From positions 189,902,067 to 189,966,066 of the forward strand of contig NC_134569.1 in NCBI RefSeq assembly GCF_050947875.1: a stretch of DNA of 64,000 nt, in the 5' to 3' direction. The notes under the pieces were generated by a model. It did no database searches, was not told the origin of the DNA, and was given only the letters and a program-made list of their open reading frames with translations. Shown here in pieces: positions 1 through 44,436 of the stretch (position 1 is its first letter; each line of letters opens with the position of its first letter). The translations under genes and the position numbers were made by a program. Origin of the DNA: Dermacentor variabilis. Its lineage: Eukaryota > Arthropoda > Arachnida > Ixodida > Ixodidae.

Positions 1-1099
1 CGAGCTCTTCCCAAACGATGGAGGCGTTCGATGCGAGGACATTGAATACGAAGACTCTGTTGAAATAATTCAGATATTTTGGAAAGAAGGGAATCGTGAG
101 TTTCATCAACAGTTTCTAATAAACCATGTAAAATAATGTTGTTCCGCATAGACCAATTTTCTAGATCTTCATTCTTTCCAGTCAACTCAGAGACTGAACG
201 CTTCAGTGCGCTTATTTCGTTATGTAATTGACCATTTTCAGGCCGTGAAGCAGGGTTGGCCAATGCCTTTTCAACAGCGGAAATGCGCAATTCAAGTGCC
301 TCGAAGCGCATACCAACAGAACTTCTTATCTCCGCAATGTCGCGAGCCATGTTCTTATTGTTAGTCAATATTTCAGTCAAAAGTTGTACAAGCACAGGAT
401 TATCGGAGTTCGACAATGCTTCCTCAACCACCAGCTCTCCAGTAGGATTAGAAGCCCTCGGCGAATTAGCACAGCCGCTTGAATGGCCCAAAGAAGCGCC
501 ACCCTTTTTAATAGATTTAGTCGACCGGGTTCCCGTAGTGGGTCCAGGGTTAAGCTCGATATCACCCCTCAAGAGAAGGCGGTTGAGGGCCGTCAACATA
601 ACAGAGCATACATCATGAAAAAAAAGTGGCTGTGGGCAGCACAGCAACAGCAAAAAACGATCGTCGGACTTTAAACAATGAGCATTTTTGCGGTAACATA
701 CCAGCATAAGCAAGAAACAGTTTTTAGGCGGCATTCCGTAGCTGTTGCCAAGATGCCCACTGATGAGGGGAACCGCACACAGGGCTTTTAAACCCCTGCC
801 TGATGGTGTCGCTGAGCTGGGAGGGTTGCTGATTGGTTTGTCAGGAATGGCAACGTTGAGGGCGGTGTCTAGCGGCAGAGATGAGCGGATCGATGGCCCG
901 CACCCATGACACACGTGGGCGATAGTGCAGACCTGCGCAGCTTCCTCGATCTCAGCCACGTGCAGTTGCACCGGTGATGGTGCAGTCAGCCGCGTGAAGG
1001 CAGCAGCAGGGACGACGGTTCCGAGGAAAAGACTGGCAAACTGCATAAGCAAGAAACAGTTTTTAGGCGGCATTCCGTAGCTGTTGCCAAGCTGCCCAC
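1..1099 (-). mobile_element. CR1/L2-like LINE, 5' part (copy of LINE A)
   Basis: On the minus strand this is the 5' UTR and ORF1 amino-terminal part of the element seen more fully at 33467-38047. It runs off the window start inside the ORF1 RNA-binding region. The 2A-like motif DIELNPGP lies at 563-540, followed by a charged linker and a predicted coiled coil. The 5' end is placed near 1099, where a repeated 5' UTR motif stops and spacer begins. Whether this copy has an RT downstream cannot be seen here. Confidence 0.85.
704..1099 (-). repeat. LINE 5' UTR direct repeats (about 57 bp, twice)
   Basis: A motif of about 57 bp occurs at 704-760 and again at 1043-1099 in the same orientation, 339 bp apart, with one clear difference (agatgccc versus agctgccc). 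The same pair sits at 37652-37708 and 37991-38047 in the second copy. Being at the extreme 5' end of the LINE, it looks like a partial tandem array of 5' UTR units, which in LINEs often carry the internal promoter. The promoter role is inference. Confidence 0.7.
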
Positions 1100-1369
1100 T
1101 CACTTGATTTTGATGTAAGGCCAAATCGACAACGGAAGACAGGTAACTTGTAAGCATCAGTCGAAAAAGAAAAAAAAGGGAAATTCCACTAGGAAGATAA
1201 AAATAACGGCGTTGGGAACTGGCTATAGGGTGTGTTCCGATAAGGACATACTTAGGGGAGTCCCGGCTATTCTTCTTCAGCGAAAATTTTCGTGTAAGCT
1301 GGGCAAGTGCCTCTGTAGAAAATAATCAACCTTTGTTTTGCGAGACTCGGTGCGGATTTTGAGAAAGTC

Positions 1370-2876
1370 TAATCGCGGGCCCGCAGGGGCGTCTGTGTCA
1401 GCACGCGTTTGGTGTGTTGCGGCGCCACGTACCCGAGCACACGAGGGTTGGCCCCTCCCGCGCCTAGCCGGAAGTGGCTTTGCCGTGTCCGGGGAAAAGG
1501 GGATCCCTGGGGTTCAGCTGACGCTGAATGTTTGGACCTTTGTGGCCCCTCCGCGGAGGCAATACAGCCCTTTGGCCTCTGCTTCACGTAGACGGCACCT
1601 CCGGACTGACCCTCCCGGGAGAAATCGGCAGTGACCTTTTCCTGCCTTCTTCCACCACACGCTTTTTCTTTACCGTCTTCTTTCAGACTTGTCCTGTCTT
1701 GCATCTTCTATTCACTTCAAAGTTTCGTTGGTGGCAAGGGTTAACCTAGTGTGGCGAACCTAACTTGGTTATGTCGTATTACGTTATTGTATGGCTGTAC
1801 AGCTGGCGTGGGCAGGACTTGTTCGCATGTTCTTGTCCCGTCCCTCGCTGGGCTGCCTCGTGGGCTGCTGGCACGGTGGCTGAACAACACAACTTATCTA
1901 TGGCTCCTCCTTTCACCCAAGAGAATCGCCCCTCTTATAGAAGAGGGCGAACCGAAGCAAGTGATTTTCTAGAAAAGAAGGTAGCCTTCCCAAAATACCA
2001 GGTAATACATATTGAAGTAGAAGAAAAGCTAGCAAGAATCTTGCCCCCATTCACAGTATCCAAGTCGTTGACACAAGGCCTCGGCCCTGGCTACAAGCTT
2101 TTAAAAATTTCTAGCGGCGATTTGCTGCTCGAAATGCACGACAATGTGCAATACACAAAACTGTCAAACATTGTGTCCATTGGCGACATTCCTGTATCCG
2201 TTACATCCCACCGATCCCTCAACACTGTCCGCGGTGTAATATCAAAAATCGATTTCAAACAAGACATGCTTGAAGGGCTCACCAACCAAGATGTCATAGA
2301 CGTTCATCGGATCAAGATCCGGGAGGACAACAAAGAAATCGACATGAAACACCTCATCCTCACTTTCAACAGCAACACAGACCCTGAAAAAATACAAGTC
2401 GCCTACTTGAATATAAGTGTAAGGCCCTACATTCCCAAACCCCGGCAGATGATTCAATTGCCAGAGGTTCGGCCATGGCTCACAGAATGGCCGGGGCTGC
2501 AAAAGTTGCGCAAAATGTGCTTCGAAAGAACATGCTTCCGAAAACTGTGACGGTGCAGCGCATTGCGTAAACTGTGACGGAGAACATGCCGCGTACTCCA
2601 GGGCGTCTCCGTCCTGGATAAAAGAAAAAGAAATAATCACATTGAAAACCAAAGAAAACATTTCATTCAAAGAAGCAAGAAGGCGTATCGCGCTAACAAA
2701 CACATTCCTCGTCAATGGAAGAAGCAACTTCGCCGATGTATTGCGACGGAGCATAGCCGCACAACAACTATCGGCGCCAGCTCAGGCCACGGTTACCGGG
2801 CCTCCGGCAGAGTCACCCGCGCCCCAGGCAGAGGCAGCACAAGCTGCCCTGCCACCTACTAAGCAGTGCCTGCACG
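1370..2876 (+). mobile_element. Jockey/I-like LINE, 5' UTR and ORF1 (copy of LINE B), truncated
   Basis: A GC-rich leader of about 500 bp (roughly 1370-1890) is followed by ORF1. The exact 5' end is not fixed. The sequence is the same as 38318-39824. This copy loses its ORF1 carboxyl terminus and all of ORF2 at 2876, where a gypsy fragment begins, so it cannot move autonomously. Confidence 0.8.
1900..2876 (+). pseudogene. LINE B ORF1 (gag-like nucleic-acid-binding protein), frameshifted and truncated
   Basis: The reading frame from ATG 1900 encodes a gag-like ORF1 amino-terminal region up to about 2445 (VRPYIPKPRQ, the usual run-up to a zinc knuckle). It then leaves frame. In the next frame, 2450-2640 encodes the CCHC-type knuckles: CQRFGHG, then CKSCAKC and HCVNCDGEH. 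A TGA sits at the junction, so the copy is broken by a small indel plus a substitution. The tail from about 2642 is open until 2876. The same lesions are in the right-hand copy, so they predate the duplication. ORF1 proteins of this kind coat the element RNA; this one is probably dead. Confidence 0.8.
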
Positions 2877-3320
2877 ACCGACCAGCAGCAGCACCACGAA
2901 TAGATCCAGGACGACCACCCTTGCGCCACTCCTTTCCTTCCTGGAACACTCGTATCATTGTATGTACCACTGGTCTGTGTTGCGAACTGCTCCCAAAGTA
3001 TGATGGGCCCTACCACATGGTCGACCGTACATCTCCTGTTAACTACGTCATCGAGCCTCTTACGGCACTTGCTGATCTCCGCCGCCGTGGACGCAATATC
3101 GTACACGTAGAGTGCCTCAAGTCCTACTTGGACCCCCCTGTGCCCACCTCTTAGATCGCCAGGATGGCTCCTGCTTATTCCAGACAGACAATGGTAATAA
3201 AGACGAGGAAGCCGAAGCGCGAGCAGGATCGCCAGCGCAGCGCGCGAGACTGCGCTCGACTTGAAACAGTGCTCATCACTGCAAACCATTCTGGATTCAC
3301 GACCCACGTCCAGTAAACAT
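2877..3320 (+). mobile_element. Ty3/gypsy integrase carboxyl-terminal remnant
   Basis: The open frame to TAG 3152-3154 ends with a typical GPY/F module (LLPKYDGPYHMVDRTSP, then NYVIEPL) and an integrase tail (RRGRNIVHVECLKSYLDPP), as in Ty3/gypsy LTR retrotransposons. The following 170 bp is GC-rich and may be the start of an LTR, but no LTR pair is visible. Upstream catalytic residues are absent. The frame is continuous with the truncated LINE ORF1, giving a 170-residue chimeric ORF (2642-3154) that I take as accidental. Confidence 0.75.
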
Positions 3321-5508: not shown

Positions 5509-5512
5509 TTAA

Positions 5513-5541
5513 AGGGACACTAAAGGTTACCAGAAAGTCAA
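5513..5541 (+). repeat. Left terminal inverted repeat, 29 bp, with TTAA target duplication
   Basis: Begins AGGGACACTAAAGG directly after TTAA (5509-5512). It is the exact reverse complement of 20241-20269. Identity ends at base 30. Confidence 0.95.
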
Positions 5542-5981
5542 GTTAAAGTGGTAGAGCAATGTTCTAGAACGTCTAAGGCGTCAATATAATCGCGAACAGA
5601 GCTTTAGTAACCGAGAAATTGAGGTAAATGCATGACACGATTTGAGACCCCCCAGCGACATTCCGGTACTAACCCGATGACGAAAGGACTCCCCATAACT
5701 TATGTTACTAATACTCAACTACTCGTATTAAAAATATCGTTTCATTCGATTATAAGATGGAAGAAAATGCTACTTGTCTACGTCTACTCGATTCTAAGAA
5801 AAAATAACATTTTGACGTTACCCTTCAGTAGTATGGGTGGTCGAAAGGTTTCGTTTTCGCTCGACTCTGCGCGCACGACTCTGCGCCCCGCACGCTTCGG
5901 AGTTTCAGTAGTTTCGTTATCGCGTCGTGCTGTGCGGGTTCTGCTGGCTCGTGAAACTTTCATTTGGAACAAGCAGCGAGA
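5542..5981 (+). promoter_or_regulatory. Left subterminal region and presumed transposase promoter
   Basis: 440 bp between the left terminal repeat and the transposase ATG. The last 150 bp is GC- and CpG-rich (CTCGACTCTGCGC and similar), as in many TATA-less promoters. There is no clear TATA box. Promoter assignment is by position only. Confidence 0.35.
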
Positions 5982-8900
5982 ATGCCACGTCCATGTGATG
6001 GCGTGGGATGCCCGAACGGTTCGCGGAACTTGGCCAAGGGCAGTCGCAGCGGCGAATCCAACGTTACTTATCACTGTGTGCCAAGGAGTGAACCTCTCCG
6101 TTCGAAGTGGTTAAGTGCCGTACCTCTGCTACAACTCGTTGGCAAAGAGCCGAAAAATCGCGTAGTGTGCTCGCTGCACTTTCGTCCAGAGGATTACGAG
6201 TTTAACGCCGACTTACTGAAGTCGTCTGGAGTGCCTATCAGAGCAATGCTTTCCCGTAGCGCTGTTCCGTCGGTCTTGCCTGCATTCTCCGAAGCGCAAG
6301 AACAACTGCAGGACGAAGACGGGGCGGTGAGTGCGGCATTTTGTTTCCACGAAGGAAAAGCTAGAAATGTGCGAATATGTACAGCCATGACATAAAGTTG
6401 CTTGTATTTTCAGGCTGAACGTAGCGAATCGCAAGCCAGCGCTTCGACAGTCGACACCTCCTACAAAAGCGACGTACAGGTACGCAAAATGCGCGAAAAC
6501 TGGCTATTACTGGCGCTCTCGCTCGATGACTGCACTGACAGAAGTCACTGCACAAACTGGTTGCACCTGACGTGTTCGTTATTTTCTAGGCGACTCGTGA
6601 CGCGGGGACAGATGCAAGCCTCTCGTCGAGCACTGCCGAACAAAGTTGCAGTAGCGTTGGAAATACGAAATCTGTACAAGTTCGTCTGCCCGGCACGAGC
6701 ATTGGTGAGTTTGCTTCTGGTAATGTTGGCATCAGCACTTAAATTCAAGGAATGTTCATTTTGATCACAGGTAGTCTCATTTCCATTTACAGTAATATTT
6801 AAAGCAATCCTCACCTACAATGGTCAGTTGAATAGCTTTTTTCCAACGTGACTTTTATTGCAGGAGTTCAAGTTAACACAACAATGAAGGAAACAAAGGA
6901 AAAGGGAACGCAGGTTTGCAGGAGAAGGAAGCCCGTGACATCAACACCTGTGAAGAGGCGTTGTAGTGCTCGAAGAGCTGATGGAGCCAAACGACGGCGA
7001 CAAACATCTAGACAGGAGGCCAGCTTTCTCGCCTCACCTGATGCATCACCGGTAGCTTGCAAAGCTGACAGGCATGACACGACATATGAGCCAGACAACT
7101 CGACTTGTACCTTGGATGCAACATTAGCTGATGAGTGAGCAGGACTCATATTTTACTACATAGGAAGCCATGCTCAAAAATAGTGACATGCAATGATAAA
7201 GACATGGAGTAGCAACTCCCGACACTAATTCCGTTTCTTAGAACCATTCCCCTTTGCAAAAAAGAGCTCAAATGCCATAAGTCTTGGAGCTTGACTTTGG
7301 ACAGTGTTTTTTTGCAACTTTAATCAACACAAATTAGAGAGCATGGTTCAAGATTACCGTTAGAATTTATAAGGAAAAAAAACCCTCACAATCTGGATGA
7401 AACTTTCACAAAATTATTTCTAGCGCTTTCTATTATGAGTGTCATCACAAGAAGTGTTTCCTGGCGTGATTGGTGCAGCATAACTTATGGAACAGTACCT
7501 CCCAGATATAGTGAGGCAATTTATTAATCATGGTGTAAACAGTGTATATTGTCAAATGCATATATTTGTGAAACCTGACAGTGAGCACTTCCTTTTCCAG
7601 AAGCGACGAAGATGCGCATGCAAACCGGAAGGACTACTTCCTTGTCCGCAGCACCTGCCTAGTCCCCCTTCTGAGTCAGTGCCGCACTTGTTTGTCAGCT
7701 TCATGCACAGTGAAGCTGTTTTACACTGGCACACGCATTACAGCAGAAACTGAATGTCCACACGCACATGTGCATACGTGGTCCAGCCAGCCACTTGTTG
7801 GAACCAAGCCGAGGGGCAACATCGACCTGGCAACGGCTCTGCTTTTTTCCGGCTCAAGTCCTACTAGTGCTCTCAGGATGATGCGGCTGATGGGTGTGCA
7901 AGTCATGAGCGACCAGGCTTTCTTCAATTACCAGAAGGCATACCTTCTTCCTTCAGTGACCATGGTAATTGCACAGCTTCCACTTTTCATAATGCCAACC
8001 TGCAGTACCTCTGGCACCATTCAAATATGCTCAAAAGGCACTTTATTTCGAACCTGAGTATTAGTTCTGTGCTTACTTTCACCAAGAGAGAGAGAGAGAG
8101 AAATTTATTTACAGAAAGGTAGAGAGGTCGGCCTGAGCTATAACTTGCTCTGGCCTGCTACTCTACACTGGGGAGAAGGGACGGGAAGGGAAAGGGCTGA
8201 TGATGGTATAAGGAAGAGATGCGTATAGACAAATTCACAGAGTTGTGGCATCTCTAAAGCCGTGCGTCCAGCTCAGTGGCTTGGAGAAAAGCTATAGCGG
8301 CACTTGTTACCACGGCTGCGCTGTTTGCATTAGGCCACGGACCTAAAAGAAACTCGTCTGATAGCGGTCTCTTATGGATCGCTGCAATGGAAGAGACAAG
8401 TTGCTGTCGTTCTTGCGTGTACGCAGGACACACGCAAAATATATGTTCAAGTGTTTCTGGCACCGCGCAGTATTCAGTTTGGGCTAGTATCACTGGCACC
8501 TATCGTATGTCTATAACAGTTGGTGAATGCGACACCAACGCGAATCCGGTGCACCATGCTCGTGTGGCTTTTTTTGAACTTGTGAGGCATACGAAATTTC
8601 ATTTCTTGGTCCCATTTGTGTAATCGCTTGTGTCGTCGATCTGGTTGGGTCCAGTGTTTTAACGTACGGTTGCGTATTACTTTCACCAATGTGAACATAC
8701 ATTATTATGATGTTGTGCAGTTCATTGCATCAGTAATGAAAGAACAGTAAATTGGGTTGCCATTTTCATTTTATTCAGAACCTCTACATCGCTGACATTA
8801 CAGCTTTTACAGACTTCGGCATTCCACGCCAAGGGAACCAACATCAATTTTTTCCCTTTCTTTTATTGCTGCCAGGAATGTAACTGAAAAAAATTGTAAG

Positions 8901-11900
8901 TGTTGATTGTTGCAGGAAAGTATTTCCTTCAGCCAAAGGATATATTTTTTTCATAAGGCTATTCGGTGAAAACTGGTCCTCCTAGTACTGTGTAAGCTAA
9001 TGTAATGCATTGGTGGCTCAGATGAGTATGGCTGAAGAATATAACTTCGTAACGTCAGAAATTCAGCAAGTTTGTCCTGCATAATTGAAAATCTAACTGC
9101 ACTACTTGGGACAAGAACAAAAATCAATGAGTAGGCGAGGACAGGCACTGCCTTTCTGATGGGTCTCTGTATTATACATGTGCTACACATGTGCATGCCG
9201 TATGCTAGAAACAAAGAATTGAAGAAGTGCAGCATAGATAGAACACCAATGAAAACATGACAAGCTTATGTTTCTGGTTGTTAGGCGGAAAGGGTAACTT
9301 GCAAGTATGACAAGGTATTACTAACACCCTACATGCATCTTGTTTCCTGCCTTAAAGAAATATCGAACAGCATGTAGGAGTGCAAATAGTTACCTTCCTC
9401 CATCCCGCATAAACACTATATTTCCAATGCAACATAAAAGAAAATGCAAATGTGTTGCCAAGCAGCAGATGCATTGTTTAAATGACTCTCTGCATGAGCA
9501 CAATAACAATGATGAACTAGGCATTTTAGTGAATCGTTGTCATGCCTGTGGGGTGCAATCTTTGAAGAAGCCCAGATAGTGTGGGAAGGCACACTGTGAA
9601 TGAGCAATCCACCTATCTCATTACTGCAGAAATAAATGCTGTGTTCGACGATCATGGGCACGCTGTGCAGGCAATAGCAAGTCATGTTTTCACTGGTGCT
9701 TAATTTATCTGTGCTGCACTTCATTATTCCTTTGTTTTTAGTGTACAATGCATTTACACTCTCGTTTGTAATAGACCGTCTCAATGTAATGTCAAAGGAT
9801 GGCCTTCTCTGCTTGTCGACTTATGGTAATGTGCAGCACAAACGATGAGGACAACAAACTGTGCGGAATGATCCCTGATATAACTACATTTAATTCCCAG
9901 AAAACGCCTGTTGGAATACAAACAAAAAGTTAGTAAACCCAGCTATTACACAAGAAGTAAATCCAGCTATTACAGAAGATGCACAAAAAGACAGATGGAA
10001 ACAAACCGCAAGGACAACACGGATTTAAAGATATGAATAACTTATGTGTGGACACCAGGTACATGAAAATGTGAGAGACTAGTTGAAAATCACATGCTCA
10101 AAAACTATGCACCTGACCAGTCCTTGTGCGACAAGGTTACTTTGGATTGTAAAACTGATATTGATGTCTGGCTGACACGCATGATTCCTCTTTTCTTTAT
10201 GTTGCATGCCTCTGCCAGCTTGTGGGTCCTCTGATTTCCGTGCTGCAAAATCACATCAACATCACTAAAAATTCGCATGTGAACTAGTCGAGGCATAGCA
10301 CATACATAAAAGAGGGATCGCGTGCATCAGGCAGACATAGGTATCACATTTAGAAAGCAAGTAACCTTGCATAGTTTTTGACAAGCAATGATTTTTAACT
10401 AGTGTGTCACTTTTTAATGTACCTGATAAGTTTTGTTGCATTTATAAGTCTGTGTTATCCTCAAGGTTTGTATCTCTTCCTACTGTCGTTATCATCGTGT
10501 CATAGCTGGGTTCGTGTATCTTCTTTTCTATTAAAACAAGCAATTTCTGTGAATAAAGTGCAGTTGAAGCTCAGTGCTCATCCTGCGCAGTTCTTTGTCC
10601 TCATCGTACGACCTGCCCGTTACCATGAATGCAACCAACTTGCCCAATGTTCCATTCTTTCAAGCATCTATTTATGTCCTCGTCCCCAGTCACATTTTGA
10701 ATCACTCTGAAGCACACTCATTAGGACATTCTTGCTAACTAGTTGGTTCACACTTGAAGGAAGGTTAAAACTGCATGAAAAAACTAGGGGAAGCAAAGGA
10801 ATACACAAGTCTGCATTCGTGATGTATTGTGTGTTCCTTCTACTTGTATTTGTTTTTTTGCGCAGTTTTAACCTTCCCATGCTCATTAACAGCGTGAATT
10901 CTTTTAGCAAATCTCTCTGTCCCCTGTGCCACTTTTGTGCTTGAACTCTACTCGTGAATTCCTTACAGGTCTTGGATGACCATCAGAAAACTTTGCTGAC
11001 AGAGCTCAGCGATACCAGCCTGCAGCTTTGCGGGGATGGGCGATGTGATTCCCCTGGCCACAGCGCCAAGTTCCTCTCGTACTCCTTCCTGTGCCCTGAA
11101 AAGAGAAAAATCATACACACAGAGCAAGTTCAAGTGAAGGAGGTAAGTCAAGCAAGGAGCAGTTCAGATGCTTTCATGATAGGTCTTATTATACAAGCAA
11201 TATTTACCCCAGCCAACTAAAATATGGCATGCAACGTTGACACGCAATCCGAGCCGTTCAGTGGCATATCGCAGTAAAGAGGTGGTCCTTCTTTCGAGAT
11301 TTCTAAACTGGGTATTGCTACGATTATATTTTTCAGGCTGTGTAATAATACCGGAAATACCAAGGTCTGAATAAGAAACACCAATGTATGAAAGCCTCTA
11401 ACCCTACAGCTAGAAAAGAACTAGCAGAACTTTCCAAGTTAATCAACAAGCGAAAGACAGCTGACATAAGGAAGTGTAATATGGATAGAATTGAAGATGC
11501 TCTCAAGAACGGAGGAAGCCTAAAAGCAGTGAAGAAGAAACTAGGAATAGGCAAGAATAAGATGTATGCGTTAAGAGACAAAGCCGGCAATATCATTACT
11601 AATATGGATGAGATAGTTCAAGTGGCTGAGGAGTTCTATAGATATTTATACAGTACCAGTGGTACCCACGATGATAATGGAAGAGAGAATAGTCTAGAGT
11701 AATTTGAAATCCCACAAGTAACGCCGGAAGAAGTAAAGAAAGCCTTGGGAGCTATGCAAAGGGGGAAGGCAGCTGGGGAGGATCAGGTAACAGCGGATTT
11801 GTTGAAGGTTGGTGGGCAGATTGTTCTACAAAAACTGGCCACCCTGTATACGCAATGCCTCATGACCTCAAGTGTACCAGAATCTTGAAAGGACGCCAAC

Positions 11901-14722
11901 ATAATCTTAATCCATAAGAAAGGGGACTCCAAAGACTCCAAAGCAGGGGACAGCAGAAAGTTAGGTGGGCAGATGGGATTAAGAAGTTTGCAGGGACAAC
12001 ATGGCCACAATTAGTACATGACCGGGGTGGTTGAAGTATAGGAGAGGCCTTTTCCCTGCAGTGGGCATAGCCAGGCTGATGATGATATCAATACCAGCGG
12101 TGCTTTCTGTGCATTCCTGTTTTGCAGAGTGACAAGTGCAGGCAAGTGCCCAGATGGAAAAAGAGGGCCTCGTAAGAGGTCTCAAATTTCTTTCTGAGCA
12201 AGGCATGTCTGTGAGCTCATTTACTACGGACCGCCACTCGGGAATTAAGAAGCACATGCGGCTGCAACGTCCGGAGATCAATCATCACTTCGATGTGTGG
12301 CATGTTGCAAAGGGTACGAAGAAATTCATGTTGTTCGCCTGCAACAGATGGCCTGTGTGTAACCTAGTGCACTTACTGAATGGACATGCAATTGTATAAT
12401 GGATTGTTCAGTGGATACGTATGCTAAGACAAGGAAATTCATACAATCACGATTATGCCACTGCTGTGATGGTTATTGCAACATGGTCATGTTTGTCGTA
12501 ATATGCTCATTATACTGCTTTCGTCACCCCATCGTGATCATGATACTTTCATTGTACTGCCTTCATCATTCCATCGGCATCATTATTCATAATTTCATCG
12601 TCCATGTCTCATGAGTGTCGTCATAGACTTGTCATGCGATCATGATCATGGCTAACCCTGGTGATGAAACAAATTTCAGTACGAAGCATAAATTCTTTAG
12701 CATGTCAAATTTTACCAGAAAAGGATTTCGGATAAGGAGGAACGATTGTGCTTGGCCCATTTGTCTGCGTTGTTCTTTACACTATATTAAAATTTCCTGA
12801 AACTGAACTAGTCCATAAATAAATACTACTACATGCCTGTTGTGTGCGCATTGTTCGTTCAGCTCCTACAGGAAGTTGATTTGGGATTTTGAAGGAGTGT
12901 TATGGCTTTTATCACGGTAGGCTATTCACTGCCCTCCTGGCTCCTCTGCTCATACCTCTTTAGTATTCAAGCTGTATCAGCCTTCGTTAGATTCTTAGGC
13001 AGATGATTCCTTTAATGAGTTTGCTTGCAACCTTGGTTTGTACAATGCCTACCAGTGCTGCTATATCTTTACGAGGCTTATGGTACGCAAAGTGCAGATC
13101 CACCTGATATGGAGCAATAGTGTATTGTGCTGTTGCCTTGTTGCAGGCATCAGGAAAAAGCTGACTGCAGCTTCACGGAGGGCTGGATGCAGTGCCATTA
13201 CGGAATGGACACAAGCCATCACCAACCACCTGTACTGGTGTGCATGCGCTTGCGGTGGCAACGGGGACATGCTGGTGGCGGCATGGAGTAGCATGCTGAA
13301 CCACATTAAGAGCGGACATGAAGGACATGGTGGCCTGTACCCCCGCTGTCCTCACGGACAATCCCGCCGCATGCAATGGCTCACTGCTGGTAGGCATAAA
13401 TAACCAAAGAGCACCAAGATAAAGTGCATAAAAGAGCTGTATTTATAATTCCCTTTCTTGTCAGACTCTCCAGCCTACAAGCAAATTGAGCGCATTGTGG
13501 CAGCACCACTGTTGCTGAAAGACATCCGCCAGTTGTCACCATCTGTTCAGACATACAGCCTGGAGTCCTTCCACAGTGTTCTAAATGGTTTTGCCCCAAA
13601 GTCGACTGCATTCACATATGAAGGCCCGGTGAGTTTGCATAAGCTGATGTTCTAGCAATGAAACTACAGTGGATTATTAATGCTGAGACAAAATAATTTT
13701 CTAGCACACTGATTGCTGCGCTCCACTTCAACGAGAACTCCCAGCGAGAGCAAGCAAGGAGCTGTGATGGTGCAGAACAGTGGCGCATAAAGTCCTCCAA
13801 GGTCAGGCAAAGTACCTCGACAGCATGTGCACTCAAGGAAGCTCCCACATTTGGCAAGTCAATTTGAAAATACTTGCTGTGCTATGCTTTGCCTATTATT
13901 GCAATATGTTATGCAGCAATGTTTGTAAAAAAGGGAATGTTTTAGTCCTCCTGTACTGTCTACCAAAAGCATCGCTATCTTTTGCAATGGAGAGTGAAGT
14001 CACTGCGACAGCTGTCTTTAAGACATTTTCTGAACCTTCATGACAGCCTGTCCACTGAAGACATTTTGCCAGATCAGTGGAATTTTGCTCAAGATTGCCA
14101 TGTACTGCCAAAAGCTATACATCATAGAGATGTCTCACTGAAAGGGTGCAATGACAGACACTCCACGATGCAGAACGTGGAACATTTGAATGGCCAATGC
14201 CTCCGGAGCGACGATGAAGTCAAAGAGGTGAAACGCTTCCTCAACGGGCTGGCGGCGGAGGTCTATGACATTGGGGTCCAGAAATTGGAGCAGTCTACAA
14301 GAATACGTAGAAAAAAGATGGCGATTATATAGAAAAATAGAGAAAAGTTTCACTTTTCCAATGATGTTAATTTTTATGAGATTAAACAATGTCGTCTCTT
14401 TGTGAAATTGATGGTAACCTTATTTCTGGATCAACTCTAGTATATGGAGTGTTTGTATATGTCATAGGACATCCCCCCTTTTAGGTGTGTGCAGGTATGA
14501 AAGGGAAGAAATGCAATAATCTGTTGAACTTTTCTTTTTTCAGACTATGTGAAAGACCTGCACAAGAAAGTGATGGAGCTGTGCGCACAGTATGAAACAT
14601 TCTCCAAAGCACTTGCACAAGTGGAGGAAAGTGTTCCAGCTGCATTCTCATCTCGGGATGACCAAAGAGTGCCCAAGAGAGACCTTGTAGCTGCACAAAA
14701 AGCACGGTTCCTCAAGTTCTGA
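5982..14722 (+). CDS. THAP-domain DDE transposase, 11 exons (Kolobok-like)
   Basis: Exons read by phase and splice sites: 5982-6326, 6414-6479, 6590-6704, 6864-7134, 7601-7964, 10969-11142, 12128-12313, 13147-13389, 13465-13628, 13705-13853, 14544-14722 (about 750 residues). Exon 1 encodes a full THAP zinc finger: C5, C10, C63, H66, W43 and the closing AVPSVLP. Exons 3-4 form a basic linker. Exons 5-10 hold the catalytic core, with GDGRCDSPGHSAK (about residue 410), TDRHSGIKKHM, FDVWHVAKG and LESFHSVLN, a plausible D-D-E set. Two problems: exon 7 needs one extra base after 12128 to stay in frame, and exon 10 is one base off. Acceptors at 12141 and 13744 would restore frame while dropping conserved residues. 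So it is either slightly broken or alternatively spliced. Confidence 0.85.
8085..8700 (-). mobile_element. 5'-truncated Jockey/I-like LINE, 3' end, in transposase intron 5
   Basis: On the minus strand the frame 8499-8254 encodes a reverse-transcriptase-element carboxyl terminus with HIFCVCPAY and LLGPWP. Upstream pieces (KFRMPHKFKKSHTSMVHRIR) belong to the same ORF in another frame. The 3' tail ends in an AAATTT region and a (CT)n run, seen as (AG)n at about 8088-8101 on the plus strand. Broken and 5'-truncated. Confidence 0.65.
11362..12090 (+). mobile_element. RTE-clade LINE fragment with internal deletion, in transposase intron 6
   Basis: 11388-11935 matches the linker and early RT part of the RTE element at 53733-56052 (MKASNPTARKELAELSK, then PQVTPEEVKKALGAMQRGKA). 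At about 11945 it jumps to the element's 3' end (VRWAD/KKFAG-type terminus) and finishes with GATGATGAT. So most of the RT is deleted. A short aatacca motif near 11355 and 12093 may be the target duplication. Confidence 0.75.
14140..14440 (+). mobile_element. Tc1/mariner-like transposase carboxyl-terminal scrap, in intron 10
   Basis: The frame ending at 14332 contains SDDEVKEVKRFLNGLAAEVY and DIGVQKLEQ, resembling the end of mariner-type transposases, followed by a 3' UTR-like NDVNFYEIKQ segment. No terminal repeats are seen. The call rests on remembered family resemblance. Confidence 0.4.
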
Positions 14723-15370
14723 TGTGGTGCAGAGATCGGCATCACACATTTTCTTGACTCTTCCCTGACCGTTAACAATGTGCTCATTTTCAAAGTGATC
14801 ATTTAATTCCAAAAAGCACTAGCCGCAACCCATACGATACAAAAATGTTAACTTATATGCTAGTTAGACGGGCAAATTTAGCTTCACATTGAGCGAGTGC
14901 ACCGTTAGTGTGGTTGTAAGAAATGACTTTGTTGTGTCGCTTTAGAAAACAATGCCGAAACAAAGGGACCAAAACAATGCCAAAACCAAAAACAAAGGAA
15001 ACGGCCAGACAGAAGAGAACATTATTTCCTGTTCTGATGCAACGTGTAAACAATATGTCAAATTGCTTGATTTCCTAAGGCCTGGTAAGAAAAGAGTTAA
15101 ACATGCACACATGATTCTTCCTACTCTGCCATATCGCTGGCATTCTAGTCATCACTAACTTTTCCATTATGTCTTCAGTGACGAAACACATCATCAACAA
15201 GAATACAGAATGTTTTACTGCTCAGCACTTTAGCTTTAAAAAACTGACAACCTTGTGACTAGTGATACCTGCTGACAGGTAAGCAGAACATTTTTCGATA
15301 TCTGATGAGGAACTCAAATGTGCACGGCGATTTATCAATGACACCGCTGCTTCCACAATTTTCTTTCCCT
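14723..15370. other. Intergenic space between the two convergent transposon genes
   Basis: 648 bp between the stop codons of the plus-strand transposase gene and the minus-strand accessory gene. AT-rich, with short adenine runs. Both transcripts probably end here, but I could not place either poly(A) signal with confidence. Confidence 0.5.
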
Positions 15371-18300
15371 CTAAGACTCGGGGTACTTGAACCCTGTGGG
15401 CGTTTCTGTGGGGAACGTCACCCGAATTTTCGCGACAGCACACGATGGCAACACAAAACGTTCGCCTTTTCGAAGCCGCCCCCACAGCCAGCGCACAAAT
15501 TGCCTGTATGCTGTGTACCGGTACCTTCTGTAAAGAAAAAAAAACAATTATTACACACTTGCATTTAGAAACATTGCGTGAATTGAAGGCACTTCACTTG
15601 GTTGGATGGATTGATGCTGTGAGTAGCCTCTGTGGAAGAGGCTGCAGGCTATGGCCCCCAAGCATGTTTGTATTGATATTATTAAGACAATTTTTTGTGG
15701 CCTCAGTTAAACTTGCATCCCATGTTAAATAAGTGCCCACCAGGCACTGAAAGTAAACAAGCACAGTTGTAGATCTATTCGTCAACCAGCTGGACTATAG
15801 TGGCTTTACTTCACAAGCCTAGCTGGGGGTGCTCTCTCCCTACAATTATTTTTTTACATAAAACTGCTCCATGTTCAATGTAATACATTTATAATGTCTT
15901 TTTAAGCAGCTAGTTCCCTGCTCATATATTACCTTACATAATGTGCCATAACTTTACTTCAACATTAGGTAGCAGTCGACAGCCAGTGTACAAATCCAAT
16001 GTGATATCAGTTTTTCATTGTTTGTATGTTTACTATAACATGAATGTGTTGCTCACAGATGTATTAGGAGGTTCCTGTTGGTGTCAGTGAATCCATCCAT
16101 GTCAACCATGTGTATTAGTAATTTTTTAAAAACACGAACTACCTATTCTTCTACCCATCCACTACATCTTGTTGCCACCCATTTTGCCACTTTCAACCCA
16201 AAGATATTTTGTACGCATTAACCTTGACCTCTTTTGCTACATTACTTTATGAATGAGCATACTCAACTATCCATTTGTATTTTTATTTTGTATATCTAGC
16301 ATTGTAACTGTCATTCTGGATCAATAGTCCTTGTAAATAAATACAGACTTATCTGCTGTTTGTTGGATTCCTTCTTAATTCCTAAGCATCCTGAACTGCT
16401 TCCATCACTGCATGAATAAACAAAGTGTTTTGCCAAACAGCTGTTTTAACATCTATTAGCTTTGCTGTTGGGATATGTCATGCAGTATGTGTACATCAAG
16501 AGGCTTAGTGGCACAATGTCACAATGAGAAGGCTGGCTAAAAAGAAAATAGAAAAATGATGCCTACAGACAAACCGACTAAGTATTCCTGAGTGAACGTT
16601 TGACAATTCCAAAGTGTGTGATGAGGCCGCTATGGCAAATAATGTTAATAAAACAGTATGCATGACCATTATAAATGAGACAATGCTTTGATGTGCAGCT
16701 GTTTCTTAACCAATGCTGAAATTAGGTGCACCAGAGGAGTAACAATGTGGGTGTAACAACTGTATGCAATATGAATTGCATTAAAAGCATCGAAAACATA
16801 TTTGGATTCATTTGGAAGATCAACTTTACAACAAAAAACTATACACGTCTCCCCGATGGTACCTGCGGCCTCCTGGATGAGCATCAGCTTGATCAAACTA
16901 TATGTATGCCAGGCACATAACCGGAATTTTCTTTTTCCGTAGGGGGGGGGGGGAGTGGGGGGCAACCCCCAAGGTTTCTATGCAAAATCGGGGGCGGGTC
17001 GACTTTTACTAGTACAAACTTAAAAATTTTCCATCGCTCACTATAAAGGCGCGTCGCAAACCCACAAAATGGAAAAGAAACAAGGTGCATCTGACAAGTA
17101 CGCCTGTGGTATACACCTCTGCTTTAATTGGCAAGCAAACAAGGAACCACATCACATTGACTCACGCAGGAAAGAGGCACAGAAAGGGCACTGCCAAGAA
17201 CAAGCAAAATGAAGATTTCTAGTAGTGTTTTTCTATGTTGCTCTGGATGAATTATAGTGAAAGATGTGTTTGCAGAACAATCGCAGTTCTTTTAGGTCCC
17301 TCGTTTCCTGCTCTACCAAGTGAAGTACTAAGGCCCTTGGAGTTTCATACAATAATTACTAGATAGAACTCTGGCGGTAGTGTCTAAGGGAGCTGCAATA
17401 GGAGCAGTTGAGCCAGCATGGCAATTATGGGAAGTACACGGATTTGCCTAAACTTCATTCTTTCGGCTTCATACGGCTTTGCAAACTCATCATTTTCAAC
17501 AATGTACCGCACAGTAAATAATTAAACAAACAAACATTATTAAAATTGTCCGACCGCAGGACTCAAACACAGGACCGCTAGGCATAGACGTCCGATACTG
17601 AAATCATTATGCTGCGGTCGCCTGCGTCGACACGTGACAACGCCCTTATGAATTTATTGCGGGCACGCCAGTACTTTGAGATGGTAGGCGCGTTTCGATT
17701 TGGCCACCTCGACAAGCTGAACCGTTGCAATTAGCAGTGATTGTTTGCGTTTGTAGCGTCTTCTGCACTTGGAAAAGTATACATTGCTTTGAAATTTATG
17801 ACAATGAATGCATACAAGGCGTGGTAAACAAATCCACAAGCACGAAGATCAGACAAATACGTGTACTTCCCATCATTTCCATGGTGGCTCAACAATTGAA
17901 GCACCAGAGTTACTTATTGTTCGAAACTCTATGTCAAAACCGTCTCGTAGTGTTATTTGGGAAGTTGTGTAATGATGCGTGGCCGCTAGTCCCATACAAC
18001 CGTGTGGAGCACAGGACACTATGGTTCTAGACATACTGCGCCCACCGTGGAAAGTTATTATTATGGGGTTTTTATGTGCCAAATCCACTTTCTGATTATG
18101 AGGCACGCCGTGGAAGGTTAGAAAAGCGCCCACATAGGCACAGCAAATAAGTGCCTACATTGGGCGGCTTGACTGATAACTGCAGAAGCGCAATTCAAAA
18201 CACACGGAATCATTCTCCACTTCCGGCGGCGTTTTCTCTACTTCCTTTTTAAATAAAAAGATTTTCATCCATAAATATTTTCATAAACAACGGCTTAATT

Positions 18301-19907
18301 TTTCCATTTTTGCAACTCTTGTTTCCCGTTGCCACTTTTCCACGAAAAATACTCTACATTTAAGGGAAAAACCAGACGAGGTAACGGGTGACATTCATAT
18401 TGCTTATGGGTTCAAGAGTTATTGCAAGGTTTGATTCAAATTTTGAAATTTTTAGGGATGACTAGGAAATGTAGATCGTTGAAAATATATCAATGGGGCC
18501 TTTCTAATGGCAGCACCTTCAGATTTCGAAACAAACATCGAAATAATGAGAAAGGCGAAAACATTCCGCCATTCTTTAGGTGGGAGAATATCAGTCTATT
18601 TCACGCCCTCAGTTCAGTGACATTTACCTTTCCCTTGACCTGATCAGGGATCGCTTCTATGCCTTGGCCATAACAATACTGTAACAGCAGCCCAGTGTTG
18701 ACCACGGAATAGCTGGCAAGTCTCAAGATTGATTTGGCGGTGTTTTAGGCGTGGCCGGGAGGAGAAAGGGGGGCACCCCCCCCCCCCGGTCCCCTCCTTG
18801 GGTACGTGCCTGATGTATGCTCTCCTGCCCTACACACACCTAGAGATTTGATGTGCACAAAATTTTCATTTCTGATGCCAACAATTATCGACTGGAAGTC
18901 TTGACCTTGCTGTGTTTGCAAACTAATTCTGTTAACATACTGAAAGGAATACTTCATGTTCTCTGTTTGTCCCTTCCAAAACAACCCGAGTAGGCGAACA
19001 GCATTTAAAAAAGTTGACGTGTTTGCTTGTTTAATAAGCTATGTGTTTTAGCGATGCACGTTTAATTCATTGGTCCAAAGAAAGCTGTGCAAGAACAAGA
19101 ACTTACTTGTGCATTTCATCGTCCATGGTGTGCCCCCATGAACGAAGTTCCAGGTAGGCCACACGGAGCACGGCAATGTTCAGACACAGAATACTGAAGT
19201 CTGGATGTTCCGTGATGCAACCCTGCGGTTGCGCGAGACTTACGGGTGCACCCATCTCGCGACAGCACAGACATTCGTGCTCAAGGAAGTTCGCGAGCAC
19301 CTGGCAGTGTCCACATTCGCACCTGTAATGTGTAATGTAAAAGTAACAGTAATGCACGAACCAGAAGCCGGTACAGATTACACACGCAATTCGCAATGTT
19401 GCGTCCGGCACTGTTGACAGCTCGACTCATAGGTCCATCCAACACGAAGCTACAGGCACCGTGCTTGTTTAGGGCTTGGCCCTGAAATGCTTTCAATTGT
19501 TAAAACACGAAAATGACACGCCGCGTCATAGCTGGCCGCGAAGGAGAAAACGAGCAGGTTTCGATTAGATTAACCTGCGCATTGCGAATTGCAGGTAAAG
19601 TTTCTAAGCGACCGATGCAGCACGTAATAACAAGCATCTGTACGTACCAGTCCGTGCTTGAGAGTCGCGACGGCATGTCCAGACTGTCTTCTTCGCCCGA
19701 GGTCGCATCGCTGCTCCCCTCGATGCTTTCCTGCTCCGGAGAGCCGGTGTCGAGGGCGCCGTCGTAGTACGCAACGACGCCGGCAGCGCGAGCCCTCAGC
19801 AGCAGGTCGCGCTCGTCAGTGCTCAAATCGCTGAAGTTGAGCCCAGCATCGCGAGCCAATGTGTCGTTGTCAGGGTCCATCGCGACAAGCGTCGAAGTTT
19901 GCGTCAT
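15371..19907 (-). CDS. P2X7 C-terminal-domain-like zinc protein, 3 exons, 210 residues
   Basis: Exon 1 is 19907-19648, exon 2 19322-19107 and exon 3 15527-15371 with TAG at 15373-15371. Donors are gtacgt and gtaagt and both acceptors end in cag; phases match at both junctions. Residues 1-86 are acidic and low in complexity (Ser/Glu/Asp), with a second possible start at codon 10 (19880). The first junction completes W87 of WCECGHC, the signature of the cysteine-rich cytoplasmic domain of P2X7 receptors. It is followed by HECLCCRE, CITEHPDF, CLN, then RYRYTAYRQFVRW and LPSCAVAKIRVTFP in exon 3. No transmembrane or channel part is present. The frame has no lesion, unlike its partner gene. In P2X7 this region binds zinc; its role in a transposon is unknown to me. 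Confidence 0.88.
17530..17660 (-). repeat. tRNA-like SINE remnant (tentative)
   Basis: On the minus strand GTTTGAGTCCTGC resembles a tRNA B box, followed by a short AT tail. No cloverleaf-grade A box was found. It lies in intron 2 of the P2X7-C-like gene. Confidence 0.3.
18064..18115 (-). repeat. Ruka SINE 3' fragment
   Basis: About 50 bp matching the 3' end of the SINE found complete at 35589-35820 (CACTTTCTGATTATGAGGCA core), in reverse orientation, 5'-truncated. It sits in intron 2 of the P2X7-C-like gene. Confidence 0.7.
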
Positions 19908-20240
19908 ATAATGAAGTACCAGCTTATTGTCGCGCGTTTCTCGTTCCGCTAGCCATCATACTGCTTTCGCTCTGCTGTTGGCTCTGTCTTGGCTCCGTTT
20001 CTGGACGCGCGTTTGCGTTTTGCGCAGAAAAGCCGTAGCGCCGTCTGCGGACGCCGTTCTACTCACCGACGGCGCAACGTCACTATGAGACCGTGATGTC
20101 AGTACTCCTGGATCGGAGGGCGGGCGATTTAAACTGCGCTAGAGGTACGCGGACGCTTCAGAACGCATTTTCTCTTAAGTCTCTCCTTGGCACGAAACAA
20201 GCGTTTCGAGGTTTCTGGGGTGGTATTTCAACAGTCCACG
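19908..20240 (-). promoter_or_regulatory. Right subterminal CpG-rich region, presumed promoter of the P2X7-C-like gene
   Basis: Unlike its surroundings this stretch is rich in CpG (ACGCGCGTTTGCG, CCGACGGCGC) and lies between the gene's start codon and the right terminal repeat. It mirrors the CpG-rich leader of the transposase gene at the other end. There is no clear TATA box. Confidence 0.4.
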
Positions 20241-20269
20241 TTGACTTTCTGGTAACCTTTAGTGTCCCT
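20241..20269 (-). repeat. Right terminal inverted repeat, 29 bp, with TTAA target duplication
   Basis: Exact reverse complement of 5513-5541, ending ...TTTAGTGTCCCT directly before TTAA (20270-20273). Confidence 0.95.
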
Positions 20270-20273
20270 TTAA

Positions 20274-31115: not shown

Positions 31116-31362
31116 GGAACCGCCGTGGTTGCTCAGTGGCTATGGTGTCGGGCTTCTGAGCACGAGGTCGCGGCATCGAATACCGGCCACGGCGGCCGCA
31201 TTTCGATGGGGGCGAAATGCGAAAACACCCGTGTACTTAGATTTAGGTGCACGTTAAAGAACCCCGGGTGGTCGAAATTTCGGGAGCCCTCCACTACGGC
31301 GTGCCTCATAATCAGAAAGTGGTTTTGGCACGTAAAACCCCATAATTATGTATATATATTAT
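31116..31362 (+). repeat. Ruka-type tRNA-derived SINE
   Basis: The head GGTTGCTCAGTGGC resembles an A box and GGCATCGAATACC a mutated B box. The body and AT-rich tail follow the same order as the other two copies. Flanked by a 12-bp duplication, AAAAAATATTGT, at 31104-31115 and 31363-31374. This copy differs from the others at several positions, including the B box. Confidence 0.85.
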
Positions 31363-33592: not shown

Positions 33593-35464
33593 CTATACAT
33601 CAGCAATAGCATTTAAAAATTGAGAAATGGGTAACAAACGAACTTCGGCAGGTAACAAATTCCACTGTTCAATCATGCGGGGAAAAAAACTGTATTTGAA
33701 AGTGTTAGTGCGTGGATGGAGTGGTCTGATATTAGAGGCATGATAAGCTCTAGTTGAAGTCGGGCAAGCTGGCATTAAAATGGAGGGATCTGATAGGTGA
33801 CAAAGAGAGTTCTTATAAGAATAGAAAATCTTCAGAGATTCTATGTGCCGCCGCCTAGAAAGAAACTGGAGGTTTAATTCCGTAAGAGCAGCTGATGGTG
33901 AAAAGTCTCGGTCGAAGCGACGGTAAACAAAACGAATAGCCTTCCTCTGGACAGACTCAATACAATTAATTTCACATTGTTTATGTGGATTCCATACGGA
34001 GGAAGCATATTCTAAAATTGGGCGAATCAGTGTTTTATATGCTACTGATTTAGTGTCCCTCGGAGCAGCAGACAACGTCCGGCGAATGTAACCAAGTTTT
34101 TTTAACGCTTTACTACAAATGTAATCTATATGTTTAGACCAAGACAAAGTGGGTGTAAAAATGACGCATAAATATTTGTATTGAAAAACTCGTGTTAGTG
34201 GTACACCGTGGCATATATAATCATAACATACGGGCATGTGTCTGTGAGTAAAAGACATTACAACAGTTTTATCAAAATTTATGCTCATTTTCCAAGTAGC
34301 ACAACAGTCACAAAATGAAACAAAGGAATCTTTAAGGCGCTGATGATCAGCTAGTGAATCAACTGGGCTGTACATAACACAATCATCTGCATAGACGCGT
34401 ATTTTTGAAGTAACATGGTCTGGAAGGTCGTTAATAAACAATAAGAATAGTAGAGGGCCAAGCACGGATCCCTGTGGGACTCCTGAGGTGACGTCGACTA
34501 AAGACGAATCCGCAGAATCATAGCATACGAATTGGGAACGCAAAGAAAGGAAACTGGAAATCCAAGACACTAACTGAGGGTTATTTAGAATATTATGGAG
34601 TTTCAAAAGCAATTTAGAATGTAGTACTGTGTCAAAAGCTTTCCTAAAGTCAATGAAAATGGTGTCAATCTGATTACCTAAGTCGATGTAATGGGAAAGG
34701 TCATGAGTGAACTCCGTAAGTTGTGTTACAGTACTAAAACCGCGCCTGAAGCCGTGCTGAAAGCTGCTTAATAGGTTATTATTTTCAAGGAACAGTATTA
34801 TATGCTTATATATTATGTGTTGTAGTATTTTACATGAGGTTGCAGTTAAAGAAATAGGCCTATAGTTAGATAAAAGCTGCCTGTCACCAGATTTATATAA
34901 AGGTAGTACTTTAGCTATTTTCCAGGAAGAAGGCACAACGCCACTATTAAGCGACTTCTGACATATAATAAACAGATATTTAGATGTCCATAGCGAGAAT
35001 CGTACTAAAAAGGAATTCGGAATTCCATCAGGGCCGGCTGGTTTTTTTGTATCTAAGTTTAGTATGAGATTCAAAACACCTTCTAGCCTAATGTTGATAT
35101 CATCAATTGCATATGAATAGCTAGTTGCAAATATTGAACGACTGGAATCATCTGAGGCGAATACTGACTGAAAATATGTATTAAATGCTTCTGAAATCTC
35201 TAATGGATCGTTAACAACACTGTTGTTGATATTAAAAGATGTGGAAGAAGAAGAGCCAGGAGATATGAAAGACCAGAATTTACGGGGGTTAGACTTGAGC
35301 AGTTTCGGCAACTGAACAGGATAGAAGAAATTTTTGGCCGAGGTAGTTTTTTTCTGAAGTTCATTTTTTACCTGAGCGTACAAAACGCATGCCTCAGGAT
35401 TATTCGAGCGTTTAGTGCGAAGTCTACCAGCACGTCGCGATAAGTGCAGCAGTTCTCGGTTCAT
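33593..35464 (-). CDS. LINE A reverse transcriptase region, intact frame
   Basis: 623 codons open to a stop at 33593. The RT signature blocks run in order: LNLDTKKPAGPDGIPN, YRPISLTATSCK, FQHGFRRGFSTVTQL, FIDFRKAFDTV, SGVPQGSVLGPLLF and YADDCVMY, the catalytic YADD box. The thumb follows, and a carboxyl-terminal WNLLPAEV-type block typical of CR1/L2 elements closes it. No lesion is seen. The first ATG at 35464 is not the real start: the frame belonged to one polyprotein with the endonuclease upstream before the SINE inserted. The enzyme primes cDNA synthesis from nicked target DNA. Confidence 0.9.
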   Translation of the reverse strand: MNRELLHLSRRAGRLRTKRSNNPEACVLYAQVKNELQKKTTSAKNFFYPVQLPKLLKSNPRKFWSFISPGSSSSTSFNINNSVVNDPLEISEAFNTYFQSVFASDDSSRSIFATSYSYAIDDINIRLEGVLNLILNLDTKKPAGPDGIPNSFLVRFSLWTSKYLFIICQKSLNSGVVPSSWKIAKVLPLYKSGDRQLLSNYRPISLTATSCKILQHIIYKHIILFLENNNLLSSFQHGFRRGFSTVTQLTEFTHDLSHYIDLGNQIDTIFIDFRKAFDTVLHSKLLLKLHNILNNPQLVSWISSFLSLRSQFVCYDSADSSLVDVTSGVPQGSVLGPLLFLLFINDLPDHVTSKIRVYADDCVMYSPVDSLADHQRLKDSFVSFCDCCATWKMSINFDKTVVMSFTHRHMPVCYDYICHGVPLTRVFQYKYLCVIFTPTLSWSKHIDYICSKALKKLGYIRRTLSAAPRDTKSVAYKTLIRPILEYASSVWNPHKQCEINCIESVQRKAIRFVYRRFDRDFSPSAALTELNLQFLSRRRHIESLKIFYSYKNSLCHLSDPSILMPACPTSTRAYHASNIRPLHPRTNTFKYSFFPRMIEQWNLLPAEVRLLPISQFLNAIADV

Positions 35465-35588
35465 CCAGGGAAGGTTAATGTTTTTTTTTTCTTAGTTTTC
35501 AAAGGAACGAATCGATATATACATGATTTGACTATGCTTTCAAAGCACGCCACGAGCGCATCAACGTCACTAGATAGTCCAAGTGCCA

Positions 35589-35820
35589 CCCGCCGTGGTT
35601 GCTCAGTGGCTATGGTGTTGGGCTGCTGAGCACGAGGTCGCGGGATCGAATCCCGGCCACGGCGGCCGCATTTCGATGGGGGCGAAATGCGAAAACACCC
35701 GTGTGCTTAGATTTAGGTGCACGTTAAAGAACCCCAGGTGGTCAAAATTTCCGGAGTCCTCCACTACGGCGTGCCTCATAATCAGAAAGTGGTTTTGGCA
35801 CGTAAAACCCCAAATATTAT
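35589..35820 (+). repeat. Ruka-type SINE inserted in LINE A
   Basis: 232 bp, with a tRNA-like head (GTTGCTCAGTGGC A-box region, GGGATCGAATCCC B box) and an ATTATT tail. A perfect 14-bp target duplication, TAGTCCAAGTGCCA, flanks it at 35575-35588 and 35821-35834. It lies antisense to LINE A and splits its frame. Confidence 0.95.
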
Positions 35821-37655: not shown

Positions 37656-38047
37656 AAGCAAGAAACAGTTTTTAGGCGGCATTCCGTAGCTGTTGCCAAG
37701 ATGCCCACTGATGAGGGGAACCGCACACAGGGCTTTTAAACCCCTGCCTGATGGTGTCGCTGAGCTGGGAGGGTTGCTGATTGGTTTGTCAGGAATGGCA
37801 ACGTTGAGGGCGGTGTCTAGCGGCAGAGATGAGCGGATCGATGGCCCGCACCCATGACACACGTGGGCGATAGTGCAGACCTGCGCAGCTTCCTCGATCT
37901 CAGCCACGTGCAGTTGCACCGGTGATGGTGCAGTCAGCCGCGTGAAGGCAGCAGCAGGGACGACGGTTCCGAGGAAAAGACTGGCAAACTGCATAAGCAA
38001 GAAACAGTTTTTAGGCGGCATTCCGTAGCTGTTGCCAAGCTGCCCAC
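37652..38047 (-). repeat. LINE A 5' UTR direct repeats
   Basis: Second copy of the repeat pair described at 704-1099. The distal unit marks the 5' end of the element at about 38047. Confidence 0.7.
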
Positions 38048-38317
38048 TCACTTGATTTTGATGTAAGGCCAAATCGACAACGGAAGACAGGTAACTTGTA
38101 AGCATCAGTCGAAAAAGAAAAAAAAGGGAAATTCCACTAGGAAGATAAAAATAACGGCGTTGGGAACTGGCTATAGGGTGTGTTCCGATAAGGACATACT
38201 TAGGGGAGTCCCGGCTATTCTTCTTCAGCGAAAATTTTCGTGTAAGCTGGGCAAGTGCCTCTGTAGAAAATAATCAACCTTTGTTTTGCGAGACTCGGTG
38301 CGGATTTTGAGAAAGTC
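38048..38317. other. Spacer between divergent LINE A and LINE B
   Basis: About 270 bp with no recognised coding separates the 5' ends of the two LINEs. It is duplicated at 1100-1369. It may contain host DNA or the distal LINE B leader. Confidence 0.5.
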
Positions 38318-44431: not shown

Positions 44432-44436
44432 GCAAG

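Follow-up and report, generated by a model that had tools for sequence, protein, structure and literature searches.

What occupies the long stretch between two matching inverted ends in the genome of the tick Dermacentor variabilis, and can it still move? The locus lies in a window of 64,000 nucleotides (contig NC_134569.1 of RefSeq assembly GCF_050947875.1, positions 189,902,067 to 189,966,066 of the forward strand), which is the whole stretch of DNA analyzed and to which coordinates given without a contig name refer. The element at 5513 to 20269 is very probably a TTAA-inserted, cut-and-paste DNA transposon with complete ends, which belongs to the Kol0 lineage of the Kolobok superfamily and would move as proposed below. 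Kol0 is the predicted lineage on the basis of a second protein, KolX, and of motif signatures. The initial annotation had proposed a Kolobok-like element in a tick, and the ends, the TTAA sites, the THAP-DDE transposase with its H2CH motif, and KolX all agree with that proposal.

Termini and insertion site

The element and its borders comprise the following features:

5509..5512, no strand: left TTAA target-site duplication; TTAA is also present at other copies and at empty sites
5513..5541, plus strand: left terminal inverted repeat of 29 nt, beginning with 5'-AGGGACACTAAAGG
5513..20269, plus strand: Kolobok element of 14,757 bp, defined by its ends, TTAA, gene content, and other copies at independent sites
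20241..20269, minus strand: right terminal inverted repeat of 29 nt, from comparison of the ends
20270..20273, no strand: right TTAA target-site duplication

The 33 nt at 5509 to 5541 (TTAA plus 29 nt) are the exact reverse complement of those at 20241 to 20273; a pair of this length would arise by chance anywhere in 64 kb with a probability of approximately 3e-11 if equal base frequencies are assumed. The 29 of 29 complementary terminal bases and the TTAA exactly outside both ends that had been described from the letters were thus read correctly, and the complementarity reaches 33 of 33 when TTAA is counted. A 4-bp TTAA target-site duplication is characteristic of the Kolobok superfamily, the termini of which are defined as 5'-RR...YY-3' (PMC9587614), and those of the window element are 5'-AG...CT-3'. 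Searching the window for an 18-nt terminal sequence, with as many as 3 mismatches allowed, recovers the two element ends and nothing else (0.09 matches expected); therefore, no opposite ends of miniature inverted-repeat transposable elements (MITEs) lie nearby, which was the circumstance that the initial annotation had named as fatal to its proposal.

Transposase and KolX genes

The plus strand carries a predicted transposase gene of the THAP-DDE type with 11 exons, modeled from the sequence:

5982..6326, plus strand: exon 1, THAP domain (PF05485, E 8.6e-11), GT donor
6414..6479, plus strand: exon 2, phase-consistent, GT-AG, aligned with a D. albipictus protein of 93% identity
6590..6704, plus strand: exon 3, phase-consistent, GT-AG
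6864..7134, plus strand: exon 4, phase-consistent, GT-AG
7601..7964, plus strand: exon 5, used for the genomic search below
10969..11142, plus strand: exon 6, region of the first catalytic Asp (GDGRCDSPGHS), with invariant or nearly invariant columns in a 10-sequence alignment
11362..12084, plus strand: fragment in intron 6 resembling a long interspersed nuclear element (LINE), 89% identical to 55000-55562 and 86% to 53739-53883
12128..12313, plus strand: exon 7, second catalytic Asp (TTDRH) and DxxH motif (DVWH), from the alignment
13147..13389, plus strand: exon 8, H2CH zinc-binding motif (H555, H560, C570, and H572, invariant)
13465..13628, plus strand: exon 9, catalytic Glu (SLESFH), from the alignment
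13705..13853, plus strand: exon 10, followed by a GC-AG intron (gene model)
14544..14722, plus strand: exon 11 and stop (gene model)

The gene combines the THAP domain and the H2CH motif by which such transposases are recognized (PMC6004289). In an alignment with nine relatives, the DDE residues are conserved (D410/D414, D475, D496-V-W-H499, and E617). The Pfam match of the DDE-type domain, to Mutator, is weak and under the curated cutoff (E 3.5e-4), and the fold of a relative resembles the DDE transposases ISCth4 and Hermes in a fold search. The P element appears in the Foldseek list with an E value of 0.019; it is not among the 50 matches of a further listing, an absence that does not count against it. 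The THAP-DDE transposase recognized at the outset as cargo is confirmed, and the two intron-containing genes noted with it are recovered as gene models, with 11 exons for the transposase and 3 for KolX. No CCHC finger follows GDGRCDSPGHS, as judged by eye in the 10-sequence alignment, which is as expected of Kol0; a CCHC finger at that place is the signature of KolobokP, E, D, and 5 (PMC9587614). The LINE-like fragment of intron 6 is present in all 11 family copies checked, interrupted in one of them, and is an old, ancestral passenger of the transposon family.

The minus strand carries the predicted KolX gene:

19648..19907, minus strand: exon 1, with an alternative start at 19880 and nearly the same N terminus as D. 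variabilis protein P0002
19107..19322, minus strand: exon 2, beginning of the cysteine-rich ballast domain (gene model), with 21 genomic matches
15371..15527, minus strand: exon 3 and stop, with a PF20478 match for the exon frame (E 2.8e-9)

Joined as 19907-19648, 19322-19107, and 15527-15371, these exons give an open predicted protein of 210 amino acids (aa) in the window copy. This protein matches Pfam P2RX7_C (PF20478), the cytoplasmic ballast domain of P2X7 (E 5.9e-22), and matches the solved P2X7 receptor in the C-terminal ballast region alone (query residues 79-209; E 6e-10). It is 86% identical to a D. silvarum record and keeps all the cysteines that are invariant among its relatives; of 16 homologues, 14 come from named ticks and 13 have PF20478 in precomputed annotation. 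Such a second protein is expected of Kol0: Kojima and Bao reported in 2022 that Kol0 Koloboks encode KolX alongside a DDE transposase and that KolX shares its fold with the cytoplasmic ballast of P2X7, and they proposed that P2X7 stems from a fusion with KolX (PMC9587614). A convergent KolX match lies within 25 kb (6.3 to 22.5 kb) at 14 of 16 same-family exon 5 loci, where approximately 0.003 pairs would be expected by chance.

Six of the tick homologues (P0001, P0004, P0006, P0007, P0009, and P0016) carry the record name "P2X purinoceptor 7-like" and are 171 to 225 aa long, compared with 595 aa for P2X7 chains. These six records are probably KolX genes of Kolobok elements and not receptors.

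Copies elsewhere in the genome

A search of the D. variabilis genome with exon 5 gave 25 matches, 16 at 87 to 100% identity (same family) and 9 at 69 to 77% (distant). The copies examined number 11, which include the window copy, its duplicate, and other fetched loci (10 of the 15 same-family places outside the window were fetched). Three long copies elsewhere have both ends and TTAA, namely, C11 (17,651 bp), C2b (14,803 bp), and C3c (approximately 14,750 bp); in C3a, C3b, C4a, and C4b, one end or none was located within the fetched stretch. The search for further copies spanning both ends that the initial annotation had recommended was thus successful for long copies as well as for the short elements described next, and its other refuting outcome, that no other copy spans both ends, did not occur.

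The left 288 bp of the element gave 1828 first-look candidates, of which 40 were scored, and all 40 are full-length matches at 97 to 100% identity. Twenty of these places were examined. Apart from the window copy and its duplicate, there are 18 loci, of which 17 hold elements of 1,026 to 1,348 bp with both ends and TTAA on both sides and one, L009, marks where a long copy begins. The short elements retain approximately 501 nt at the left and approximately 553 nt at the right, and 16 of the 17 also hold approximately 0.29 kb that is absent from the window copy. They represent 15 independent insertions (three have shared flanks), with a pairwise divergence of 0 to 4.7% (median, 1.8%). These short, TTAA-flanked elements are deletion derivatives of the long element.

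Empty sites were sought in the fetched DNA with 21 joined-flank queries (the window copy, C11, C2b, C3c, and the 17 short copies), 2 of which, from one long and one short copy, hit uninterrupted, paralogous sites. The flanks of C2b match two neighboring repeat units, one at 99.0% over 200 bp and the other at 99.4% over 157 bp, and a single TTAA is present in each. Those of the short copy L043 match three repeat copies at 89.8 to 91.3%, two of which read TTAA and the third TGAA (window 54271-54408). Empty sites with a single TTAA, which had been proposed as a check, are therefore available for other members of the family.

Contrary observations and coding capacity

Several observations weigh against the reading of this locus as a complete Kol0 transposon. 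When the transposase is spliced with exon 7 at 12128, the acceptor implied by the proteins of relatives, six internal stops result, and among the 6 of 11 copies in which all 11 transposase exons are whole, a single one (C2b, 754 aa) is open. The copies C6a and C6b have a left flank in common and no recognizable right end, and no empty site of the window insertion was found within the fetched DNA, the sole DNA searched. With respect to KolX, the structure model has a pLDDT of 42, which is too poor for use, 7 of the 21 matches have no exon 5 match within 25 kb, and none of the nine distant exon 5 loci has a KolX match within that distance.

The breaks in the window transposase have two sources. 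In exon 7, 1 nt is gone near 12133 compared with eight of nine other copies, the ninth, C6a, lacking the same base; an alternative acceptor 14 nt downstream, which would place the exon start at 12142, bypasses this break. In exon 9, an 8-nt deletion near 13618, corresponding to one of two ATGAAGGC units, still shifts the frame; both units are present in all six other spanning copies (the match of C4a ends before the site, and C6b and C4b are without exon 9). Because its transposase frame is broken, the window copy as it stands is not autonomous, and the suggestion that it might be is not upheld, though its KolX gene is open. Since one other copy is fully open, the family may be autonomous through that copy, as judged from its predicted 754-aa frame. 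All KolX exons are whole in 7 of 11 copies, with an open frame in six of these and three stops in C6a.

The window copy lies inside a tandem duplication of approximately 36.95 kb (34,084 aligned bases, 99.89% identity), and both units carry the insertion as well as the exon 7 and exon 9 changes. The duplicated segments are window 1-2879 and 36949-39827 and G000:C2:189867985-189902066, with borders of the duplication at window 2874 and 39827, and the repeat may be either a true tandem duplication or an assembled second haplotype. C3b, the closest other copy, diverges by 1.3, 1.1, and 0.7% across the three segments compared. The right end of C3b, the left end of which was not found, is identical to that of the window element, and the right ends of C11, C2b, and C3c are mismatched; perfect ends are therefore no clock. 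With the insertion in both duplicate units and the nearest other copy at this distance, the recent insertion that had been supposed is not demonstrated. At C6:59304664 and C6:59345851, two copies approximately 41 kb apart have the left flank as well as a degraded right end in common, which suggests a second local duplication.

Alternative explanations

The two ends could in principle belong to two short MITEs inserted separately, by chance at a distance of 14.8 kb and on either side of host genes, and the abundance of short derivatives with the same ends (1828 first-look candidates for the left 288 bp, 40 of them scored) would fit such a situation. The probability of this is negligible, and the explanation was rejected on the grounds that long copies at independent sites share this internal sequence and have both ends and that the window holds no opposite ends; in addition, the transposase and KolX travel together. 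Equally little credence can be given to a piggyBac element carrying a KolX-like gene. piggyBac also targets TTAA, and a few of its families are reported to have a protein like the C terminus of KolX, but those proteins are without most of the conserved cysteines (PMC9587614), whereas the window KolX keeps those invariant among relatives. The 5'-AG termini are of the Kolobok type, the THAP-DDE transposase with DxxH and H2CH motifs fits Kolobok descriptions, and a scan of 10 reading frames and 2 spliced proteins, a subset of all frames, turned up no piggyBac-type transposase.

It is also very improbable, if less so, that KolX is mere cargo, a P2X7-like gene that this one element took up from its host. 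The names of its tick relatives and the seven KolX matches away from any exon 5 match would favor capture, but the 210-aa protein resembles P2X7 in its C-terminal ballast part only, the same convergent layout recurs across the family loci, and KolX is reported as the second Kol0 gene in other animals (PMC9587614). A host P2X7 gene was rejected because the match is limited to the ballast part and because the gene is linked to the transposase. Somewhat less remote, and still unlikely, is an autonomous and recently inserted window copy in which the frameshifts are sequencing errors, as the open KolX gene and perfect ends might suggest; however, the same two deletions are seen in the tandem duplicate, an objection that holds unless this unit represents an assembly copy or another haplotype, and the nearest other copy is approximately 1% away. 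A Kol0 Kolobok transposon with a damaged transposase gene remains the preferred reading.

Relationship to known Kolobok elements

The element is like Kol0 elements of the Kolobok-1_XT type (PMC9587614) in its TTAA sites, its 5'-RR termini, its KolX gene, and a DDE transposase that has DxxH and, between the second D and E, a finger. It is set apart by its tick host and possibly by its transposase gene, which is modeled with 11 exons and a GC-AG intron. The hosts named for Kol0 in the relevant passages of that paper are vertebrates, annelids, cnidarians, and sponges, and arthropods are named for Kolobok as a whole. With the XKol elements of Xenopus tropicalis (PMC6004289), it shares AG termini, a THAP/DDE/H2CH transposase, and TTAA, which flanks XKol on both sides in all but one end. 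XKol elements, which span 6.8 to 13.9 kb, are slightly shorter; their 16-nt ends differ between left and right in every row of Table 5 of that paper, and their transposase coding sequences are given as longest open reading frames (ORFs; e.g., 2595, 2145, and 2139 bp), not as many exons. The element had been called large for a cut-and-paste transposon, and its 14,757 bp does exceed the published XKol maximum of 13,907 bp, but only slightly, and part of its length is the LINE fragment. As in KolobokP (PMC9587614), the accessory gene lies on the complementary strand downstream of the transposase; a repeat search of the window found no long terminal direct repeats of the KolobokP type (about 450 or 660 bp) at the element ends, and no His-Me nuclease, another KolobokP feature, was found in the frames and proteins scanned for piggyBac.

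The animal ballast/ZCD proteins of PMC7016195 and the tick "P2X purinoceptor 7-like" records have the same conserved cysteine-rich domain as KolX. That paper also reports an Ixodes ORF that joins ZCD to an N-terminal domain printed as "TAHP," which we read as THAP. Its text does not contain "transpos" and does not call the ballast proteins transposon genes, whereas the window KolX sits inside a mobile element.

The family had been supposed to be poorly described in ticks. At the family level, this agrees with the open literature searched, in which no description of a tick Kolobok family appeared, judged from listings and passages (PMC7890033, PMC6327564, and PMC9976928), but at the superfamily level, PMC6327564 lists Kolobok in all its species, Ixodes scapularis included. 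An Ixodes transcriptome paper names one "Kolobok-5" transcript, the other paper matching Kolobok and Dermacentor is on pogo transposons (PMC7890033 and PMC9976928), and no paper on Kolobok and Rhipicephalus was found in the open-literature search. The well-supported tick family is new here; Kolobok in ticks at the superfamily level, the Ixodes ballast domain, and the link between KolX and Kolobok were already known. Outside the tick, a scan of other genome contigs with the 18-nt end returned two bacterial records, judged to be chance matches, and viral contigs scanned with the element end, two exon pieces, and the transposase alignment yielded no relative.

Proposed transposition

The THAP-DDE/RNase H transposase would bind the inverted ends and excise the element, which would then be joined into a TTAA that becomes duplicated, and KolX, read from the opposite strand, may act as an accessory protein. 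Derivatives of approximately 1.34 kb, in which approximately 0.5 kb at the left and 0.55 kb at the right are retained, could be moved in trans by the transposase of an intact copy, by analogy with Xenopus, where XKol transposases are proposed to move T2-MITEs (PMC6004289). Present activity of the family is likewise an inference, and it is unlikely, if conceivable, that the family is still moving in Dermacentor with an intact copy feeding transposase and KolX to the 1.3-kb derivatives and with KolX needed for transposition. If that were true, the seven KolX loci that have no same-family transposase nearby would be expected to contain some copies retained by the host. The family provides a tick representative of the lineage proposed to have given the P2X7 receptor its tail (PMC9587614). 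One assembly holds its long copies, among them one whose transposase is open, together with open KolX genes, short derivatives, and empty sites, which makes the role of KolX testable.

Flanking sequences

Within the element, the window repeat search also found a possible nested inverted-repeat element at 17407..17893 (no strand), with 63-nt arms that are 81% identical. The flanking DNA contains frames for LINE-type reverse transcriptase and endonuclease at 33596-35491 and 41101-41856 (minus strand) and at 47411-48097 and 44385-45386 (plus strand), and further LINE-like fragments lie at 53739-55562. A 233-nt repeat family, which is possibly a short interspersed nuclear element, occurs at 31117-31349, 35587-35819, and 57437-57669, two of the three having 93% and 96% identity to the remaining copy, and a 55-nt piece of this repeat is present in inverted orientation within the element at 18057-18111.
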